Program-made: the position numbers and the translations under genes | Assembly: GCA_018433885.1 (NCBI GenBank) | Contig: JAHDQK010000025.1 | Coordinates: forward strand, 1 to 59,504 | Length of the DNA stretch: 59,504 nucleotides | From: Candidatus Cloacimonadota bacterium | Lineage (GTDB): Bacteria > Cloacimonadota > Cloacimonadia > Cloacimonadales > Cloacimonadaceae | Direction of reading: 5' to 3' | The notes under the pieces: generated by a model | What the model was told of the DNA's origin: nothing | The model's database searches: none | Seen by the model: only the letters and a program-made list of their open reading frames with translations | Part shown: piece by piece, positions 1 to 11,540 of the stretch | How positions within the stretch are numbered: the stretch's first letter is position 1 | Layout: the number at the start of each line of letters is the position of its first letter

Positions 1-959
1 GTGGACAGAGCCTTGATCAGCATCATCAGTGAAGCTTACTTTGCCGGAGTTTCTACTCGAAAGATGAACAAGTTGTTTGTGGACTTGGGTTTGGAAAACA
101 TAGATCGCAGCTTTGTCAGCCGCTGCGCTGCTCAGATCGATGAAGAAGTGGAGATATGGAAGAATAGACAGCTTGATAGTCGCTACGCGTATATCTGGCT
201 GGATGCGATCTACACCAAGATCAGAACCGAGGGCAGGGTTAATTCTACGGCAGTGTTGATAGCGATTGGGGTTAGAGAGGATGGGCACCGAGATGTCCTA
301 GGCCTGCACTTGGGGAACCGTGAAAGCTACTATAACTGGAAAGACTTTCTACAGAATTTAAAGGCTCGTGGTCTACAAAGATCAGAACTCTGGATCAGCG
401 ATGAGCATGATGGTTTGATAAAGTCAATAGAAGAATGTTTCCCCGGACAGCTTCGACAACGCTGTATCGTCCACTGGATGCTTTAGTGCTCAGAGCAAAG
501 TTTCCAAGACTGATTTGCTGTGGCTGCTGCCGCTAACAAAAGACCTGGTAGGTTCCCGGACCAAAGAGTCCTTTGAATTGGCCTGGAAAGAGCTTAACAG
601 GGCAGCCCAGTCTAAGGGCAAGGACAATCTATTGGATTGGCTGGATAGCACTTACCATGAGATATCGGTCTATCTTGATTTCCCTGCAGCACATTGGAGC
701 AGAATCAAGTGTACCAATTCGCTGGAGCGCTTGAATGAGGAGCTCAGACTTGAGAGAGAAATGCATCCGGATATTCCCTGACGATAAGAGTTGCCTTCGG
801 CTGTTTGGTGCGATCCTGCAAGGCTATTCGGAGGACTGGATAAGCGGGAAGCTATATCTTTCGGAACCAATGGAAAGAATCAAAGACACCATGAAAAAGC
901 CCATACCATTTGAGGCAACGCGCGACGGGCTGGAGCCCTGCTCCGTCGCAGCAAGGTAG
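1..959 (+). pseudogene. IS256-family (mutator-type) transposase, double frameshift, 5' truncated by window
   Basis: The three reading frames join into one DDE transposase of the IS256/Transposase_mut family. Frame 1 (to 486) carries the first catalytic Asp in YIWLDAIY and the second in WISDEHDGL, followed by RQRCIVHWM. Frame 2 (from about 482) continues with SKVSKTDLLWLLPL and holds the catalytic Glu region TNSLERLNEELR. Frame 3 (from about 745) continues with CIRIFPDDKSCLRLFGAIL, the conserved tail that normally follows ERLNEE directly. Two separate +1 shifts (near 481 and near 740-760) therefore break the gene, and the N-terminus lies outside the window. The protein is almost certainly inactive. 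No terminal inverted repeat can be assigned because the left end is not visible. It borders the accessory operon that starts at 1083 and is consistent with transfer-prone DNA. The family call is confident; whether other copies of the element are intact is unknown. Confidence 0.9.
922..949. repeat. 7-bp inverted repeat (hairpin) at the end of the transposase remnant
   Basis: GCGACGG at 922-928 pairs perfectly with CCGTCGC at 943-949 around a 14-nt loop that itself contains GGGC/GCCC. It lies in the last codons of the frame-3 transposase tail. No T-run follows, so it is not a typical intrinsic terminator. It may be a structural element of the insertion sequence end, or simply GC-rich coding sequence. 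Confidence 0.3.
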
Positions 960-1082: not shown

Positions 1083-1244
1083 ATGAGTTGGAATTTACAC
1101 CAACATTTGGGACTCTACATTCGATTCTTCTTTGGGAACTATGATGCAATCTGCAGGTATGCAGTAAACGTTGTACTATCTGACCAAGTAGGTATGAATG
1201 ATTTTGAATCAGTGAAAGATGTTCTGTCATGGGAGATGATATGA
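1083..1244 (+). CDS. small protein of unknown function, first gene of the accessory operon
   Basis: This is a 53-aa frame with protein-like composition, beginning MSWNLHQHLGLYIRFFFG and ending DFESVKDVLSWEMI. The in-frame stop upstream is at 1038-1040 and the first ATG is at 1083, preceded by a modest purine stretch (AGAGAAA). Its TGA stop (1242-1244) overlaps the ATG of the next gene in an ATGA arrangement, which is the main reason to believe it is translated and which also fixes the next gene's start. I recognise no family. It contains no membrane segment; the sequence mixes aromatic residues with an acidic C-terminal half. It could be a small accessory or regulatory subunit of the downstream helicase system. 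An alternative is a decayed longer gene whose 5' part was lost when the neighbouring insertion element landed. Function unknown. Confidence 0.55.
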   Translation: MSWNLHQHLGLYIRFFFGNYDAICRYAVNVVLSDQVGMNDFESVKDVLSWEMI

Positions 1245-1492
1245 AAATCGAAAACATGAAAAGCGTTCCTAAGAACCGAGAGGAATTCGAAAGAAATTTT
1301 AACATACTTGAAGAATCGAGCAGACAAGGCACTTTCCACATAGCAAACCATTTATCACGGTCGATACAGGGGATTACTAATGTGAGACTACTCCCCAATG
1401 GTAGGATCGATTTTAATACCGTTGATGAGAATGCGAGATTAATGGCAAACATGACCGCAAATATGGAGCATTTGAAAAATGTCAATGAATGA
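1241..1492 (+). CDS. small protein of unknown function, second gene of the accessory operon
   Basis: An 83-aa hydrophilic, probably alpha-helical cytoplasmic protein; characteristic stretches are NREEFERNFNILEESS, GTFHIANHLSRSIQGI and NVRLLPNGRIDFNTVDE. The start at 1241 is preferred over the ATG at 1229 because GGGAG (1231-1235) sits five bases before it and because it forms an ATGA overlap with the upstream 53-aa gene. Its 3' end overlaps the DUF1848 gene by 14 bases. The sequence NVRLLPNGRIDFNTVDENARLMANM recalls short helical adaptor proteins, but I cannot assign it to a named family. The strict coupling with the downstream DUF1848 and helicase genes suggests it is a dedicated component of that system, perhaps an adaptor or regulator made in stoichiometric amounts. 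Function unknown. Confidence 0.75.
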   Translation: MKIENMKSVPKNREEFERNFNILEESSRQGTFHIANHLSRSIQGITNVRLLPNGRIDFNTVDENARLMANMTANMEHLKNVNE

Positions 1493-2483
1493 TCTGCCCA
1501 TAAGTTTCAAGCCTAAACACATCACACATCCAGTGATCATTTCAGCATCACGCTCCACTGATATACCCGCTTTCTACTCAGATTGGCTAATCTCCAGGAT
1601 CAAAGCAGGCTATGTAAAATGGAAAAATCCCTTCAGCGGCGAGTTCACAAATGTATCCTTCGAGCAAGCCAGATTGTTTGTGTTCTGGACTAAGAATCCC
1701 GCTCCCATGCTGGATAATCTTACATTCTTTGATAACAATGGTTTGAGCTACTATTTCCAATACACCTTGAATGATTATGAACATGAAAATTGGGAATCCG
1801 GCTTGCCATGCTTGGAAGATAGGATTGAGACCTTTATCGGGCTTTCTGAGCGAATCGGAAAGGAAAAGCTGATCTGGAGGTTTGATCCGATAATCTTAAG
1901 CGACAAACTTGATCAGGATGAGATCTTGCGCCGTATCGAGAGGATTGGTCAAAGACTGCACCAGCATACAGAAAGGCTTGTTTTTAGCTTTATTGACATT
2001 GAAAACTACAGAAAAGTCAAACAAAATCTCTGTTCTATTCCAGACAGGCTGCATGAGATTGATACCCAGGCCATGGAATATCTGGCAAAAGGTATCTCAC
2101 AGATTAATGCAGGTTGGGGACTGAAACTTGGGACATGTGCTGAGAAAATCGACCTGGAGCAATTTGGCATCGAGCATAACAGATGCATTGACGATAGGCT
2201 AATCATAAGATTGTTCCCCCATGATAAAGAACTGATGGCCTATCTGGGCTATACCACTAATGATCAAACCGATTTTCTGGCCGACCAGAATACTGAATAC
2301 AGTTATATGAGAATTAAAGACAAAGGGCAACGCAAGGCTTGTGGCTGCATAAAAAGCAAAGATATTGGCCAATACAACACCTGTCCACATGGATGCGTCT
2401 ATTGCTACGCTAATACTGACCACGAAACTGCCTTGAAAAACTGGAAGAAAGCACAGGAGAAAGAACTTGAGACCATCGTATGA
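1479..2483 (+). CDS. DUF1848 family protein with C-terminal radical-SAM-like Fe-S cysteine motif
   Basis: A 334-aa protein with the hallmarks of DUF1848: N-terminal ISASRSTDIP (residues 21-30), FVFWTKNP (67-74), LIWRFDPIIL near residue 130, and a C-terminal cysteine block CGC (288-290) then CPHGCVYC (302-309), a CX3CX2C arrangement like that of radical SAM enzymes but at the C-terminus rather than the N-terminus. From family knowledge, DUF1848 members are uncharacterised and are thought to bind an iron-sulfur cluster through these cysteines; the enzymatic reaction is not known. It is probably a cytoplasmic redox or radical enzyme acting on a nucleic acid or nucleotide, a role inferred only from its helicase neighbour. 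It overlaps the upstream gene by 14 bases and the giant helicase gene by 17 bases, so expression is coupled. A second start at 1485 is possible. The family is recognised with high confidence; the function is open. Confidence 0.9.
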   Translation: MSMNDLPISFKPKHITHPVIISASRSTDIPAFYSDWLISRIKAGYVKWKNPFSGEFTNVSFEQARLFVFWTKNPAPMLDNLTFFDNNGLSYYFQYTLNDYEHENWESGLPCLEDRIETFIGLSERIGKEKLIWRFDPIILSDKLDQDEILRRIERIGQRLHQHTERLVFSFIDIENYRKVKQNLCSIPDRLHEIDTQAMEYLAKGISQINAGWGLKLGTCAEKIDLEQFGIEHNRCIDDRLIIRLFPHDKELMAYLGYTTNDQTDFLADQNTEYSYMRIKDKGQRKACGCIKSKDIGQYNTCPHGCVYCYANTDHETALKNWKKAQEKELETIV

Positions 2484-5400
2484 TCCGGTATCTGATCCAT
2501 TCATACAGGATCTTAATCAGCTGGAAGCTGTAACATTCCAGGATATTGTAAAGGCTGCAGGCAGGCACAAGGATTACAATGCCTATACTGATAGGGGGAA
2601 AAAGATCCTTGAAACGCCCGGTGAGTGTAACAGATACATTGAGCGTTTCTTTCAAATGCATTACTTCAAGATTATCGACAGCATTTCCAAGCTATTCAGC
2701 TACGATAAGATTCATGAATACAGCGGTAAGGGTATTATATTGTATGACTGGGCCTGCGGTCAGGGACTTGGTAGCTGGCTGTTTCTTAATCAATTAGCTG
2801 AACGCAGACTTAAGATAAAAGTGGCTGAGATCATACTGATCGAGCCGTCTGCCATCGCTTTGACAAGAGCCGAGATCCTGATTCGGTATATCGATAAAAA
2901 CGTGAAGCTTACGACCATCAACAGGATGCTAAGCGATATATCTGAGAAAGAACTGATCAGGACCGAAGATACCCTCCGCATTCATTATGTATCCAATTTT
3001 ATCGACATGCTCAGTTGGGAATCTATAGACCACTTGTCACAACTGATCATCGAATCCCAGGTACACCAAGACTACGCATTGGTTGCGCTGAGCCCATATA
3101 AAGCATCAGCACTGGACAGGTTTATTAACAACTTTCCTGAGAGCAATAGAGTATTAGTATCCCAGCGTAACTGCACCAAAGATAACTCCTGCGCTAACTG
3201 CAAATTCGATAAAGAATTCTGTTCTGACAGCATAAAAAGCAGAGGCACAAAAAGGATCGAAAGGATTGCCCTGATTACAGCCAAACAATCTCAAATCAGA
3301 TTTGTAGCACAGCCTCCCCAAGAGTTTGAAAAGGATCTGGAAGTCACCAATGTGGCATTGGCTTCGTATGTATGTGATCCAGTACTTAGGTTAATCAGGG
3401 AATCCCGGTTTATCTTCCCAGTAGAAGAAGCAAAGTTCACATTCAAACTGCCGCATCAGAGAAAAGATGCTCCGGAACAGGAGCTATCGGTATTGGATGT
3501 CCTGATGAACCAGATTGTGAGAGGCGTGCCAAGCTTTGTCCCGATCGAGATCGAAGATATGCTCGTTGAAGCCTATTCCGGGATCATTGAGAGAGAGATC
3601 AAGAATGGAAATATCGAAGATAAGTTCACCCTCCCAGCAGAAGAAATGCTTGATCTGTATCGCGGATTGCCATCCAAGCTTGCCTTGATTAACCAGGAAT
3701 TGCAGACTGTCGCAGTTGATGCACTGATCTATATGGCACAGACACAATACGCCTTGTTACAGTATTTAAAGTTAAACTACACCGCAGATCGAGTTCGTTT
3801 TATACTGCTTGAAAAAGAACGATTCTATGCCCACTTCTGTATGCTAAGTCTAATTAACATGATACAAAAGCTATCAGCGCTGGTCCCAGAAAGTAAGTTC
3901 CCCAAGATCGAGTATGAGGTGTATGGTGACATCCACGATTCTTTATTGGCCTCATGTAATTCAAAATTCGGCTTTTCAATCAGCGATCTGGCCTCGCTTG
4001 ATACCGCTTCTTTAAACAGAGAAGACGTGTTGGTTATATGCGGTGAGATCCCTGAAACCATTACAAATAAAGACATTGAGAATGCAATAACGGTAGGACC
4101 CACTAGTGAAGAAGCAGTTACTGAAAGATTTCACAGTAACGAACACATCCGTTATTCTCTATCAAATCAAGCCGATCCCACAAGGGAAAAACTGATTGAC
4201 GATTCTTTGCACTATTTTCTCAGATCATTGTTCCGCAAACAGGATTTCTGGCCCAGGCAAAGAGAGATTATCAGTAAAACCCTGGAATTGCACTCAGTAT
4301 TGGGAGTACTCCCCACGGGGGGAGGAAAATCCCTTATATATCAATACAGCGCTTTGATGCAACCTGGATTCTGTATCGTTATTGAACCCATCCGCTCGCT
4401 AATGAAAGACCAGCATGAAGAGCTTTCCGATCTGCAAATTGATTCCATATACATCAATTCGGATCTTGAGCCGGAAGAGAAAATAACAAGATTGAATCGT
4501 TTTGTCGGTGGAGAGAGCCTGTTCCTGCTTATGTCTCCAGAACGCATGCAGATGCCGCTAACCAAGATAGATTTGCTGTATATGTCCAACCAACGGCGCT
4601 ACGCTTCTTACTTTGTGATAGATGAGGCGCATTGCGTTTCAGAGTGGGGACATGACTTCCGTCCCAGTTATTTGAGCCTAGCAAAAAACGCAGTAGACTG
4701 TTTCAAGCCTAAGTTTGGCAAGCCATTACCGCTGATAGCCCTGACTGCTACAGCATCTCTCGATGTGCAGCATGATGTTCAGAAAGAAATGACCATGCAA
4801 GGGTCTTTACCGCCAGAAATAGTAACTGATCCAATCAGGAGACAGGAAATCGACTACTATTTCCTTAGAACATCAGACAAACATGAAGAACTGGATAAGC
4901 TACTCAGCTCTCTGACAGACGAATCCTGCCAAGTCCCAATCTCAAAAGAGAACGCTGCACTGGTCTTTTGCACATACAAAACTGGACCAACAGGAGTATT
5001 TGGAAGCCGAAACGAAGGTTTCTACTATACTCTCAAGAGACGATTCGGTGATCATATCGGTGTGGGCTGCTTTAGTGGGACCGATGAAAAAGACACTCAA
5101 GTATCCGTTGAGGATATGAACAACTATCAGGACTTGTTTAAAAGAAGTCAGATTGGCATCATGGTGGCGACCCAGGCCTTTGGTATGGGTTTTAACAAAC
5201 CTAACATCCGTTATAGCTTTCATGTAGATCTACCTAAATCCATTGAGTCATTTGTACAGGAATCAGGACGGATAGGTCGTGATAAGGCTGTCTCAAACAG
5301 TTATTTGCTTTATAATGAGGGAGATAGGGCTAACAAGCTTGAGCAGATTAAAAAGTCTCATGTGTCTGAAGAACTGGCGGCAATTGTTTTTAAAGTTATC

Positions 5401-6738
5401 TTTGAGATCAAGGCTGAGATAAACAAGCAAGATATCAAGAAACTCATTGCAGGAATTCACAATTATAAAACAAGCCCTTCTGATCAGGAGCCTCAGAAAA
5501 TCTATTTTAACCAAGCTGTTGATGACAATGATGTTAACTGGAAGAACAGACCATCTTGTTTTTACGACCTCAGTTCGGAAAAACTCTTTTATACTCATTC
5601 CAAGCCTGCAAGTAAGGATTTTTATTTTTCAGTAGATTTTGCGTTGAAACACACCTCTCTGTTAGCAGAAATATTGGTGCCGGTTTATAAGCGTAGCCTC
5701 TTGGATATTATAGAATCACGAAGCAACTTGATACATCACCACAAGATATCTATATACCAGCTATATAAATCTCTAGTTTGTAATCCTGGATATCTTCAAC
5801 ATGCCAAAGAAGTCGGATGGGACTTAGTGTTCAAGAATAAAAAGGATGAAAATGCATTTATTGAGAAGGTAAGGACTCAATGCGAATTTGTTATGTACAG
5901 ACTTCAATTGTTAGGCATTATTGACGGCTATACTTATGACTATTCAAGCCGTGATTTCGAAATCGATTTCAAGGCTCCTCCATTGGAAGATATAATCAGC
6001 AACTATGAAGTGTATTTGTTCAAGTATCGTGCCAAAGCCTACATCGAAAGGCGCATGCAAGCAATGAAGGGACTGCTTGCTAATGATGACTTGTATGCCG
6101 GGTATTCCCTTGTATTTGATGATCTCTCCAGCTTCTTTGATGAAAACATTCAGAAAAAAAGAAACCAGGCCTTGCAGGAGATGTACCAGACAGCCGATCT
6201 TGGGAAGAAAAAAAGCAAGGAAGAAATCAGAGATCTGCTTGATCACTACTTTAATTCGAAGTTTATCAGCGATCTGACGACTGATACAGATGGGGGGAAA
6301 GAAGAGAAATGGGAAACATTACTCAAGTACATAAATGAGGTAGCCGATCCAGCTAATGGTTCCAGGATCGAGAACCTCGAACATATGGAGGGTGCATGTT
6401 CCCGCTTACTGCAAGAGTATCCAGATAACTACGTCCTCCTGATCCTGCGCTCCATGACTCTGTTGTGTCTTGCCAATAGCACCCAAGAGATGATAAGCAC
6501 AGGTATGGACTATTTCAGAAAAGGATGGGCTTCATTGTTCGAGAGCATTGATGAAGAAGGTATGGAAAGGATTTATGATCAGGTATGCCTACCCTTCCTG
6601 GCTGTGTTACACCAAGATCTGGCAGACCACGAATACCAGGTCTGCCACAGTGTCAATTTCGCACTTTACGCTAATAGATTACTTAAAAACCATAACGAAT
6701 ATTTAAAAACTTACAGAGGTACTGATGGACAACTATGA
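2467..6738 (+). CDS. fusion of methyltransferase-like domain, cysteine cluster and RecQ-type superfamily 2 helicase
   Basis: A 1423-aa protein starting at TTG, with AGGAGA (2455-2460) six bases upstream. Residues about 85-225 look like a class I SAM-methyltransferase fold: motif I LYDWACGQGLG (D94) and an acidic strand end ILIEPSAIAL. A cysteine set C236, C242, C245, C252 follows and could bind zinc or Fe-S. Residues about 580-960 are a RecQ-like helicase: FWPRQREII, Walker A LPTGGGKS (K621), DEAHC (D719), WGHDFRPSY (the RecQ aromatic-rich loop), ALTATAS and QESGRIGR (from Q931). The last 450 residues carry no recognisable RQC or HRDC domain, but one stretch (YRLQLLGIIDGYTYDYSSRD) resembles a winged-helix segment. 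Probably an ATP-dependent DNA unwinding core of the locus; whether the N-terminal domain still methylates or binds SAM is unknown. It overlaps genes on both sides (17 and 14 bases). The architecture resembles large defence-system helicases, but I cannot match it to a named system. Confidence 0.85.
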   Translation: MRPSYDPVSDPFIQDLNQLEAVTFQDIVKAAGRHKDYNAYTDRGKKILETPGECNRYIERFFQMHYFKIIDSISKLFSYDKIHEYSGKGIILYDWACGQGLGSWLFLNQLAERRLKIKVAEIILIEPSAIALTRAEILIRYIDKNVKLTTINRMLSDISEKELIRTEDTLRIHYVSNFIDMLSWESIDHLSQLIIESQVHQDYALVALSPYKASALDRFINNFPESNRVLVSQRNCTKDNSCANCKFDKEFCSDSIKSRGTKRIERIALITAKQSQIRFVAQPPQEFEKDLEVTNVALASYVCDPVLRLIRESRFIFPVEEAKFTFKLPHQRKDAPEQELSVLDVLMNQIVRGVPSFVPIEIEDMLVEAYSGIIEREIKNGNIEDKFTLPAEEMLDLYRGLPSKLALINQELQTVAVDALIYMAQTQYALLQYLKLNYTADRVRFILLEKERFYAHFCMLSLINMIQKLSALVPESKFPKIEYEVYGDIHDSLLASCNSKFGFSISDLASLDTASLNREDVLVICGEIPETITNKDIENAITVGPTSEEAVTERFHSNEHIRYSLSNQADPTREKLIDDSLHYFLRSLFRKQDFWPRQREIISKTLELHSVLGVLPTGGGKSLIYQYSALMQPGFCIVIEPIRSLMKDQHEELSDLQIDSIYINSDLEPEEKITRLNRFVGGESLFLLMSPERMQMPLTKIDLLYMSNQRRYASYFVIDEAHCVSEWGHDFRPSYLSLAKNAVDCFKPKFGKPLPLIALTATASLDVQHDVQKEMTMQGSLPPEIVTDPIRRQEIDYYFLRTSDKHEELDKLLSSLTDESCQVPISKENAALVFCTYKTGPTGVFGSRNEGFYYTLKRRFGDHIGVGCFSGTDEKDTQVSVEDMNNYQDLFKRSQIGIMVATQAFGMGFNKPNIRYSFHVDLPKSIESFVQESGRIGRDKAVSNSYLLYNEGDRANKLEQIKKSHVSEELAAIVFKVIFEIKAEINKQDIKKLIAGIHNYKTSPSDQEPQKIYFNQAVDDNDVNWKNRPSCFYDLSSEKLFYTHSKPASKDFYFSVDFALKHTSLLAEILVPVYKRSLLDIIESRSNLIHHHKISIYQLYKSLVCNPGYLQHAKEVGWDLVFKNKKDENAFIEKVRTQCEFVMYRLQLLGIIDGYTYDYSSRDFEIDFKAPPLEDIISNYEVYLFKYRAKAYIERRMQAMKGLLANDDLYAGYSLVFDDLSSFFDENIQKKRNQALQEMYQTADLGKKKSKEEIRDLLDHYFNSKFISDLTTDTDGGKEEKWETLLKYINEVADPANGSRIENLEHMEGACSRLLQEYPDNYVLLILRSMTLLCLANSTQEMISTGMDYFRKGWASLFESIDEEGMERIYDQVCLPFLAVLHQDLADHEYQVCHSVNFALYANRLLKNHNEYLKTYRGTDGQL

Positions 6739-7519
6739 CAACATTGCACATGACCTGAAACAGACTATTGACGAATACAGGCAAAATCTGGAATATTTGA
6801 AGGATAGGTTTGCCGATATTGGCAATATTATTACTGAGTTGGATCAGATAAAGCTGCAAGCGCAACACTCGGAATTGAAGGGACAGGAGTTGTTCGAAAA
6901 ATTGTCCGGTCTGGAATTGAAACACGCTGACCTGTCGAATCAGATGGCAGTGCTGTCGGCGGATTACGATAGTGCATTAACCAACCTCAAAAACCAGCAC
7001 AATGAATGGAGTAAGGCTATTGATAGCATAGTTCGTGATGTATCGGCTTCGATAACCGATCTGAGAACGGATTACAATGATAGATTGAACAAAGCAGTGG
7101 CTGAGATATCTCTTCAGGCCAAGCAGGAAGCCGCCTCGATTGAGCAGTATTTGCAGCAATTCTCTAAAGAACAAGTAGCTGAAATTGAGCGAATCAAACA
7201 AGAACTTGTTAGCAATATCATCCGATCATTAGGCGATAGCTCAACCCAATTGATGAATCTCAATCGTGAATTGCACAATACTTGTGAAGACCATAGAGAA
7301 AAGGTAAAATCAATCCTTATAGAGAAGGTTGAAGAGCATGCAAGTCTTCTAGAGCAAAAGATTGAATCAGTTGAGGTATTATCTGCTCAGAAAATTGAAG
7401 ATCTCCGTAATGCGGTAATGTTGGATATCAAAACTACCCGAAAAACTAACATTGCTGGTTTTATCATTATTCTGGCCTTCATTATTGGACTGATAGTTTT
7501 TCTTATAATGTCCTTGTAG
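6725..7519 (+). CDS. coiled-coil protein with C-terminal membrane anchor
   Basis: A 264-aa protein. Residues about 5-235 are almost entirely heptad-like and charged (for example QTIDEYRQNLEYLKDRFADI and KVEEHASLLEQKIESVE), predicting long coiled coils. The C-terminus (about 243-264) is a single hydrophobic segment, GFIIILAFIIGLIVFLIMSL, preceded by KTTRKTN. That is the layout of a tail-anchored inner-membrane protein with its coiled coil in the cytoplasm. The ATG overlaps the end of the helicase gene by 14 bases, so it is the last gene of the same translational unit. A plausible role is to tether or oligomerise the helicase complex at the membrane, or to sense or transmit a signal; this is inference only. 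No enzymatic motif is visible. Homology-based naming is not possible because coiled coils match many unrelated proteins. Confidence 0.85.
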   Translation: MDNYDNIAHDLKQTIDEYRQNLEYLKDRFADIGNIITELDQIKLQAQHSELKGQELFEKLSGLELKHADLSNQMAVLSADYDSALTNLKNQHNEWSKAIDSIVRDVSASITDLRTDYNDRLNKAVAEISLQAKQEAASIEQYLQQFSKEQVAEIERIKQELVSNIIRSLGDSSTQLMNLNRELHNTCEDHREKVKSILIEKVEEHASLLEQKIESVEVLSAQKIEDLRNAVMLDIKTTRKTNIAGFIIILAFIIGLIVFLIMSL

Positions 7520-10913: not shown

Positions 10914-11540
10914 ATGAAAAGCTTGGAAATCTGTGAGATTTTCTATAGCCTGCAGGGAGAATCCAATTATATGGGTATGCCCTGCATCTTTGTGCGTTTG
11001 GCACGATGCAACCTGCGCTGTAGCTATTGCGACACCCAATATTCCTATGCCCCCGGCAACAGGATGAGCTTTGAAAAAATCATCTCGGAAATAGCCATGT
11101 ATCCCGCCAAGGTGGTAGAGTTTACCGGGGGAGAACCCCTCTGGCAGGAAGATACTCCCCAACTGATGCAGATCCTGTTGGACATGGGTTACAAGGTTCT
11201 AATGGAAAGCAATGGCGCAATGTATATCGACGAAATCCCGCATGAAGTGATCAAGATCCTGGATGTAAAATGCCCCGGAAGCGGAGAAGCAGGCAGTTTT
11301 CAGCGTGCCAATCTCTCGCTAATGGCAGCTTGGGACGAGCTAAAGTTTGTGCTGACCGGGTTTCACGACTACCGGTATGCGGTGGATTTCATCACCCAAT
11401 ACAAACTGGAAGGTAGGGTAATCCACTTCTCTCCGGTTACCACAATGCTACCTGCTGAACAATTGGCAGAATGGATGCTAAGGGATGGAGTGCAGGCGAA
11501 ACTGAGCCTGCAACTACATAAGATCCTCAACCTCCGCTGA
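10914..11540 (+). CDS. queE: 7-carboxy-7-deazaguanine synthase (radical SAM)
   Basis: 208 aa. QueE converts 6-carboxy-5,6,7,8-tetrahydropterin to 7-carboxy-7-deazaguanine, the ring-forming step of queuosine and other 7-deazapurine pathways. Signature features: EIFYSLQGES near the N-terminus, the radical SAM cluster C32, C36, C39 (CNLRCSYC), and EFTGGEPLWQ (TGGEP at 71-75). Length and layout match the family. Cytoplasmic [4Fe-4S] enzyme. It follows the amidohydrolase after three bases. Its last 14 bases overlap, on the opposite strand, the end of thiS, so the two operons converge with no room for a shared terminator. No queC, queD or queF is seen in the window. High confidence. Confidence 0.95.
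   Translation: MKSLEICEIFYSLQGESNYMGMPCIFVRLARCNLRCSYCDTQYSYAPGNRMSFEKIISEIAMYPAKVVEFTGGEPLWQEDTPQLMQILLDMGYKVLMESNGAMYIDEIPHEVIKILDVKCPGSGEAGSFQRANLSLMAAWDELKFVLTGFHDYRYAVDFITQYKLEGRVIHFSPVTTMLPAEQLAEWMLRDGVQAKLSLQLHKILNLR

Follow-up and report, generated by a model that had tools for sequence, protein, structure and literature searches.

A possible new variant of helicase-centred defence in Cloacimonadota, built from a RecQ protein, a tail-anchored coiled coil and a methyltransferase-DUF1848 cassette

Near the start of a contig from a Candidatus Cloacimonadota bacterium (JAHDQK010000025.1 of assembly GCA_018433885.1, positions 1 to 59,504; this whole stretch of 59,504 nucleotides is called the window here), five open reading frames (ORFs) lie on the forward strand between positions 1083 and 7519. 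What could a DUF1848 protein, a methyltransferase-RecQ helicase fusion and a membrane-anchored coiled-coil protein be doing in one operon? The initial annotation had proposed an undescribed defence or DNA-processing system of five co-selected genes. The overlapping layout that it described was borne out, with overlaps of 4, 14, 17 and 14 bases at the four gene junctions, and Pfam, homologue profiles, a predicted fold and hydropathy agreed with the identities given to the three longer proteins. Judged from sequence comparisons, the locus is better divided into two modules, a core of RecQ and tail-anchored coiled coil, and a portable cassette of methyltransferase domain and DUF1848. The gene set is possibly a new variant of helicase-centred defence, and the cassette may be new as well.

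The core begins within a 1423-aa fusion protein (2467-6738, forward strand; TTG start at 2467, AGGAG upstream), which consists of a methyltransferase domain, a scaffold without nuclease, a RecQ core and a family-specific C-terminal domain. The RecQ helicase core (4204-5406) reached 238 bits with TIGR00614, matched the Pfam families DEAD (1.1e-19) and Helicase_C (4e-12), and its Walker A, DEAH and VI motifs are intact. A post-helicase domain (5821-6555) sets this family of RecQ proteins apart; of 125 Cloacimonadota genomes, 9 matched its profile, with E-values no higher than about 1e-46. This C-terminal domain is shared by RecQ proteins from Haliscomenobacter, Salinibacter, Rhodothermus, Thermomicrobium, plasmids of Enterobacteriaceae, a prophage-like contig, and further Cloacimonadota. 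In a tree, the family was separate from four ordinary RecQ proteins (100/98).

The second core gene (6725-7519, forward strand) encodes a 264-aa coiled-coil protein with a C-terminal membrane anchor at residues 243-261 (nucleotides 7451-7507; hydropathy 3.31). A RecQ gene followed by a coiled-coil gene with a C-terminal hydrophobic segment was found in 14 of 14 distinct loci from five or more phyla, although the RecQ and DUF1848 loci that we read were a non-random sample, which weighs against the interpretation favoured below. In these 14 loci, the coiled-coil gene mostly overlaps the RecQ gene or starts within a few bases of it. The comparison outlines a RecQ family with a seemingly obligate membrane partner, to which the window protein pair, as the family is defined here, belongs by its sequence features. 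In enterobacterial plasmids (L007:2690-8777), a member of the family is fused to ShosT-like HAD and phosphoribosyltransferase (PRTase) domains and is flanked by ShosA on its upstream side and by a tail-anchored coiled coil on the other.

The scaffold region of the fusion (3484-4176, forward strand) flanks a DUF559/Vsr-like nuclease in most relatives. The alignment of 11 relatives placed this DUF559-like nuclease between the N-terminal scaffold halves in L019, L005, L006, L007, L016, L025 and L009, and Pfam hinted at it in L077, but the stretch is absent from the window protein and from its counterpart in the Cloacimonetes metagenome-assembled genome UBA5614 (G027). The nuclease is a frequent but not universal trait of the RecQ and tail-anchored coiled-coil family. 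Since the RecQ proteins of the window, G027 and G035 form one clade (100/99) that is nested among nuclease-bearing relatives, loss along the window/G027 branch is the simplest reading.

The N-terminal part of the fusion (residues 1-270; 2467-3276, forward strand) was not detected as a methyltransferase by Pfam in the window protein. Homologue-profile alignments and a predicted seven-strand Rossmann fold with a glycine-rich motif I support its assignment as a class I S-adenosylmethionine (SAM) methyltransferase, with SAM binding predicted. In the model, the core has a predicted local distance difference test score (pLDDT) of about 70-90, and the seven strands are in Rossmann order. Foldseek returned 337 PDB matches at E<=0.001, and among the 50 matches listed, methyltransferases predominated; they include chains 8d8k_0 and 8css_7 of mitoribosome assembly structures, presumably mitochondrial Rsm22/METTL17, which the domain may thus resemble. 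The domain also carries the motif DWACGQG and the four-cysteine motif C-x5-C-x2-C-x6-C (C236, C242, C245, C252). Its profile matches were weak and to generic methyltransferase profiles only, and sequence comparison of cassette proteins with solved structures likewise yielded generic methyltransferases only.

Upstream, and overlapping the fusion gene, lies the gene for the 334-aa DUF1848 protein (1479-2483, forward strand; PF08902, 2.4e-94). Seven cysteines are invariant in 19 DUF1848 homologues, three of them in a C-terminal CxxxCxxC motif (C302, C306, C309; 2382-2405 by alignment), to which the start of the Radical_SAM profile aligns. The predicted model (pLDDT 85.6) has alternating strands and helices. 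The score against the Radical_SAM profile was 17.8 bits, or 20.6 after permuting, versus a cut-off of 29.5, and circular permutation raised the score of four comparable proteins by just 0.7 to 2.8 bits. A relation to radical SAM enzymes, perhaps with circular permutation, seems likely. A sequence search of known structures gave no solved relative, and no paper on the family was found in the open-access literature. The PADLOC model RTasDUF1848 matches the window protein (6.7e-39); in contrast to the DRT-associated DUF1848 proteins that this model represents, the window operon has no reverse transcriptase.

DUF1848 and the fusion gene are adjacent in two further genomes, G027 and G043, a co-occurrence that the initial annotation had named as a check on its proposal. 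In G027 (L015/L018), a genome of the same family, DUF1848 (60% identity) and the fusion (34%) precede a tail-anchored coiled coil of diverged sequence; in G043, DUF1848 is present with the beginning of the fusion, which the contig edge interrupts. The notion that all five genes were co-selected as one set was not supported, as only the three longer genes recur together. Among the 125 Cloacimonadota genomes, the methyltransferase domain was found in 4 and DUF1848 in 19, with DUF1848 directly upstream of the methyltransferase domain in three of the four. A scan of the genome collection gave no match with the whole fusion as query, and G027 only with the methyltransferase part.

The cassette also moves between scaffolds. 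In phage contigs (L024, L033/L034), the methyltransferase domain is joined to NERD-UvrD nuclease-helicases (PADLOC C3a187), with DUF1848 directly upstream; these belong to an unrelated helicase superfamily, and no coiled-coil partner was noted. L024 also has a gene for a trypsin-like protease upstream. A methyltransferase-DUF1848 pair cut by the contig end was seen in L037, and DUF1848 precedes a UvrD-like gene in L031. In addition, beside the same methyltransferase domain, DUF1848 is exchanged for AlkB: a plasmid of Moraxella encodes the domain (profile E=6e-34) and, some 10 bases further on, a dioxygenase of the AlkB family (9.1e-31).

Several further arrangements were seen around the cassette genes. 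In L019:8540-8875, a 111-aa ORF with only the cysteine-rich tail of DUF1848 precedes a methyltransferase-nuclease-RecQ gene and is a remnant or a mini-version. An apparent operon in L027:48-4261 encodes a UvrD helicase, a protein with ADP-ribosyltransferase and glycohydrolase parts, which unites a writer with an eraser in a single polypeptide, and a protein that has the methyltransferase domain at its end. Glycine-rich "GCGP/GCGA" proteins that look unrelated and have no Pfam match lie directly upstream of DUF1848 in L092:2279-3163 (reverse strand), L043:8123-8998 and L104:1-645, and are possibly further methyltransferase-like partners. In L015:12542-14155 (reverse strand), a 537-aa protein upstream of DUF1848 has a motif that resembles a restriction enzyme by eye and no Pfam or PADLOC match. 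DUF1848 lies beside flavodoxin in L087.

The swaps of scaffold and of partner point to a shared methyl mark as the target of the methyltransferase and its partner. Enzymes of the AlkB type demethylate bases at the positions used for pairing, mainly where the nucleic acid is single-stranded. This preference suits a methyltransferase that is joined to a helicase and favours, with modest confidence, a writer and an eraser over a second-step modifier. We tentatively prefer, while giving it somewhat less than an even chance, a defence centred on the helicase, with the methyltransferase and then DUF1848 working on a single methyl mark of nucleic acid. Linked to its membrane-anchored coiled-coil partner, the RecQ protein would bind or unwind aberrant DNA, for instance intermediates of phage replication or recombination, and the fused methyltransferase would methylate the exposed nucleic acid, its presumed substrate. 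DUF1848, as a two-cluster radical-SAM-like enzyme, would act on the same mark, most likely by removing it from host DNA, a task that would fall to AlkB on the Moraxella plasmid. The DNA of an invader, which is replicating and unwound, would collect lesions faster than they could be erased. If true, immunity can use reversible nucleic-acid methylation, coupled to a helicase, as a weapon or a self mark. The proposal also gives the widespread DUF1848 family a first function that can be put to the test. In a bolder form, which we consider doubtful, the methyltransferase and DUF1848 would be a portable writer-and-eraser cassette for nucleic acid that arms the unrelated RecQ and NERD-UvrD helicases with toxic base methylation directed at phages, with DUF1848 as a circularly permuted radical SAM enzyme that undoes a methyl lesion by non-AlkB chemistry.

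An alternative is restriction-modification with a hypermodified base. Here, the methyltransferase and DUF1848 (or AlkB) would, one after the other, assemble a modification that labels DNA as self, and a nuclease-helicase would destroy unmarked DNA, the nuclease of the window system being lost or located elsewhere. Phages are known to hypermodify DNA with 2-oxoglutarate oxygenases that act on methylated bases, the cassette rides on nuclease-helicases in L024 and L033, as does the methyltransferase domain in L019, and the separate upstream gene of L015 with its restriction-enzyme-like motif would fit as well. However, the window protein and operon lack a nuclease, the methyltransferase domain matches generic profiles only and weakly, and a modifier fused to a helicase would be unusual for restriction-modification, so that we regard this explanation as rather unlikely.

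A defence role is suggested by the neighbours of the relatives, by plasmid and phage settings, and by patchy distribution. Relatives often lie close to known defence genes, namely DISARM DrmA; GmrSD and HsdR; HsdM; ShosA and HsdR; and viperin, and the operon is probably directed against foreign DNA, as far as such contexts can tell. Besides the sampling mentioned above, several observations weigh against helicase-centred defence with a shared mark. The RecQ-coiled-coil loci L016, L077, L078 and L082 sit among housekeeping genes, and most DUF1848 genes in Cloacimonadota stand alone. The nuclease domain is missing from the window protein, which leaves no evident effector. Profile comparison gives only a weak tie of DUF1848 to radical SAM enzymes, with a score well below the cut-off, a fold search of the PDB with DUF1848 gave only poor, barrel-like matches, and the AlkB pairing comes from one plasmid lineage (two records with an identical protein).

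The housekeeping surroundings would suit a role in genome maintenance rather than defence, in which alkylated or stalled DNA would be dealt with by repair enzymes and an extended RecQ tethered to the membrane. Such a role would also agree with L044, where DUF1848 follows an O6-methylguanine repair gene at a distance of about 17 bases and Ada is close by. The patchy spread of the family (9 of 125 genomes), the lower GC content of the operon, and the plasmid, phage and defence-gene contexts speak against it, and we consider it quite unlikely.

The combination of genes was called undescribed by the initial annotation, and this stands: no PADLOC or NCBIfam model spans the gene set, and no paper describing it was found in the open-access literature, a search that did not extend to subscription papers, supplements and preprints. 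Dpd shares a RecQ-type core, and one PADLOC DpdF model spans the nuclease, RecQ and C-terminal parts of the L007 relative (469-1471, 2e-112). The window protein, however, matches DpdF over RecQ only (146.6 bits versus the full-length equivalog cut-off of 550), and the operon has no other Dpd gene; membership in Dpd was rejected. Hachiman (HamAB) employs a helicase that senses DNA damage and controls or licenses an effector (PMC12278908), but the helicase is of another type and the effector is the HamA nuclease. PsyrTA and RqlHI resemble the fusion in joining a RecQ-type helicase to an enzyme domain. The PsyrT model matched the helicase part only, the window operon has no DprA-like or PRTase part, and the fusion order differs, so that membership was rejected here too; a membrane coiled coil is not mentioned for these systems in the portions of the sources available.

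RqlHI forms a toxin-antitoxin pair of the RecQ type (PMC4670107), and parts resembling both ShosT and ShosA accompany a RecQ of the present family in L007, where the toxin-like domains are fused to RecQ and the antitoxin gene is upstream. Both would fit an addiction module that serves mainly the persistence of the island, with the methyltransferase-RecQ protein as the toxic component and DUF1848, together with the Avs1c homologue described below, as the antidote. Toxin-antitoxin behaviour would be compatible with defence and does not exclude it, but it leaves the coiled-coil partner unexplained. We judge an addiction module to be very unlikely.

The two small genes at the head of the operon had been described as encoding proteins of unknown family, which holds for one of them. 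The 53-aa ORF (1083-1244, forward strand) is of doubtful coding status: no homologue was found, it has no Pfam, PADLOC or NCBIfam match, does not resemble Avs1b C-termini, and its codon bias is no better than in another frame. The 83-aa protein (1241-1492, forward strand) is a homologue of Avs1c (NF041811, 90.5 bits at a cut-off of 70; PADLOC Avs1c, 3.6e-22), and a start at 1241 agrees with its homologues better than one at 1229. Automatic annotation would call the locus AVAST type 1 because of this gene. Neither Avs1a nor Avs1b was matched in the window genome at E<=0.001, in a search without positive control, which suggests that Avs1c stands here without its partners; no Avs1b remnant was found upstream. 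AVAST type 1 membership was rejected, as the Avs1a metallo-beta-lactamase nuclease and the Avs1b protease are not beside Avs1c. Among the other retrieved loci with DUF1848 or RecQ, none was found to contain Avs1c. In plasmid loci L049, L051, L052 and L053, Avs1c lies behind avs1a and a protease gene, and in L050 it has different neighbours. A Photobacterium plasmid has an Avs1c-like stretch inside a 577-aa protein (L054:6908-8641).

A mobile or defence-island setting had also been proposed, and an imported origin is supported. The GC content of the operon region is 41.7%, versus 49.4% to its right, no helicase homologue was found in 11 congeners, and similarity to congeners picks up again only at about 8460. 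By these measures, the operon is accessory and horizontally acquired. It is flanked by a broken IS256 element (Transposase_mut; 1-959, forward strand) that is split over several frames (ORFs 1-486, 515-781 and 735-959; Pfam 5.9e-54 on 1-486), lies outside the system, and is also cut by the assembly, because the window begins at the contig start. About 0.9 kb without long ORFs follow on the right. No tRNA was found as an island boundary, promoter and terminator scans gave no excess over shuffled sequence, and no further defence gene was seen among the neighbouring genes scanned in the window.

The broken IS256, the lone Avs1c, the doubtful first ORF and the stretch without long ORFs could mean a decayed patchwork beside an insertion sequence without present function. 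Yet the three long genes are intact with conserved motifs and translational overlaps, codon-usage bias is clear for genes 3-5 (and weak for Avs1c), and the same layout occurs in G027, which makes mere decay highly improbable. Farther along the window, a QueE-like radical SAM gene (10914-11540) matched the PADLOC viperin model weakly (2e-9), probably as a cross-match within the superfamily.

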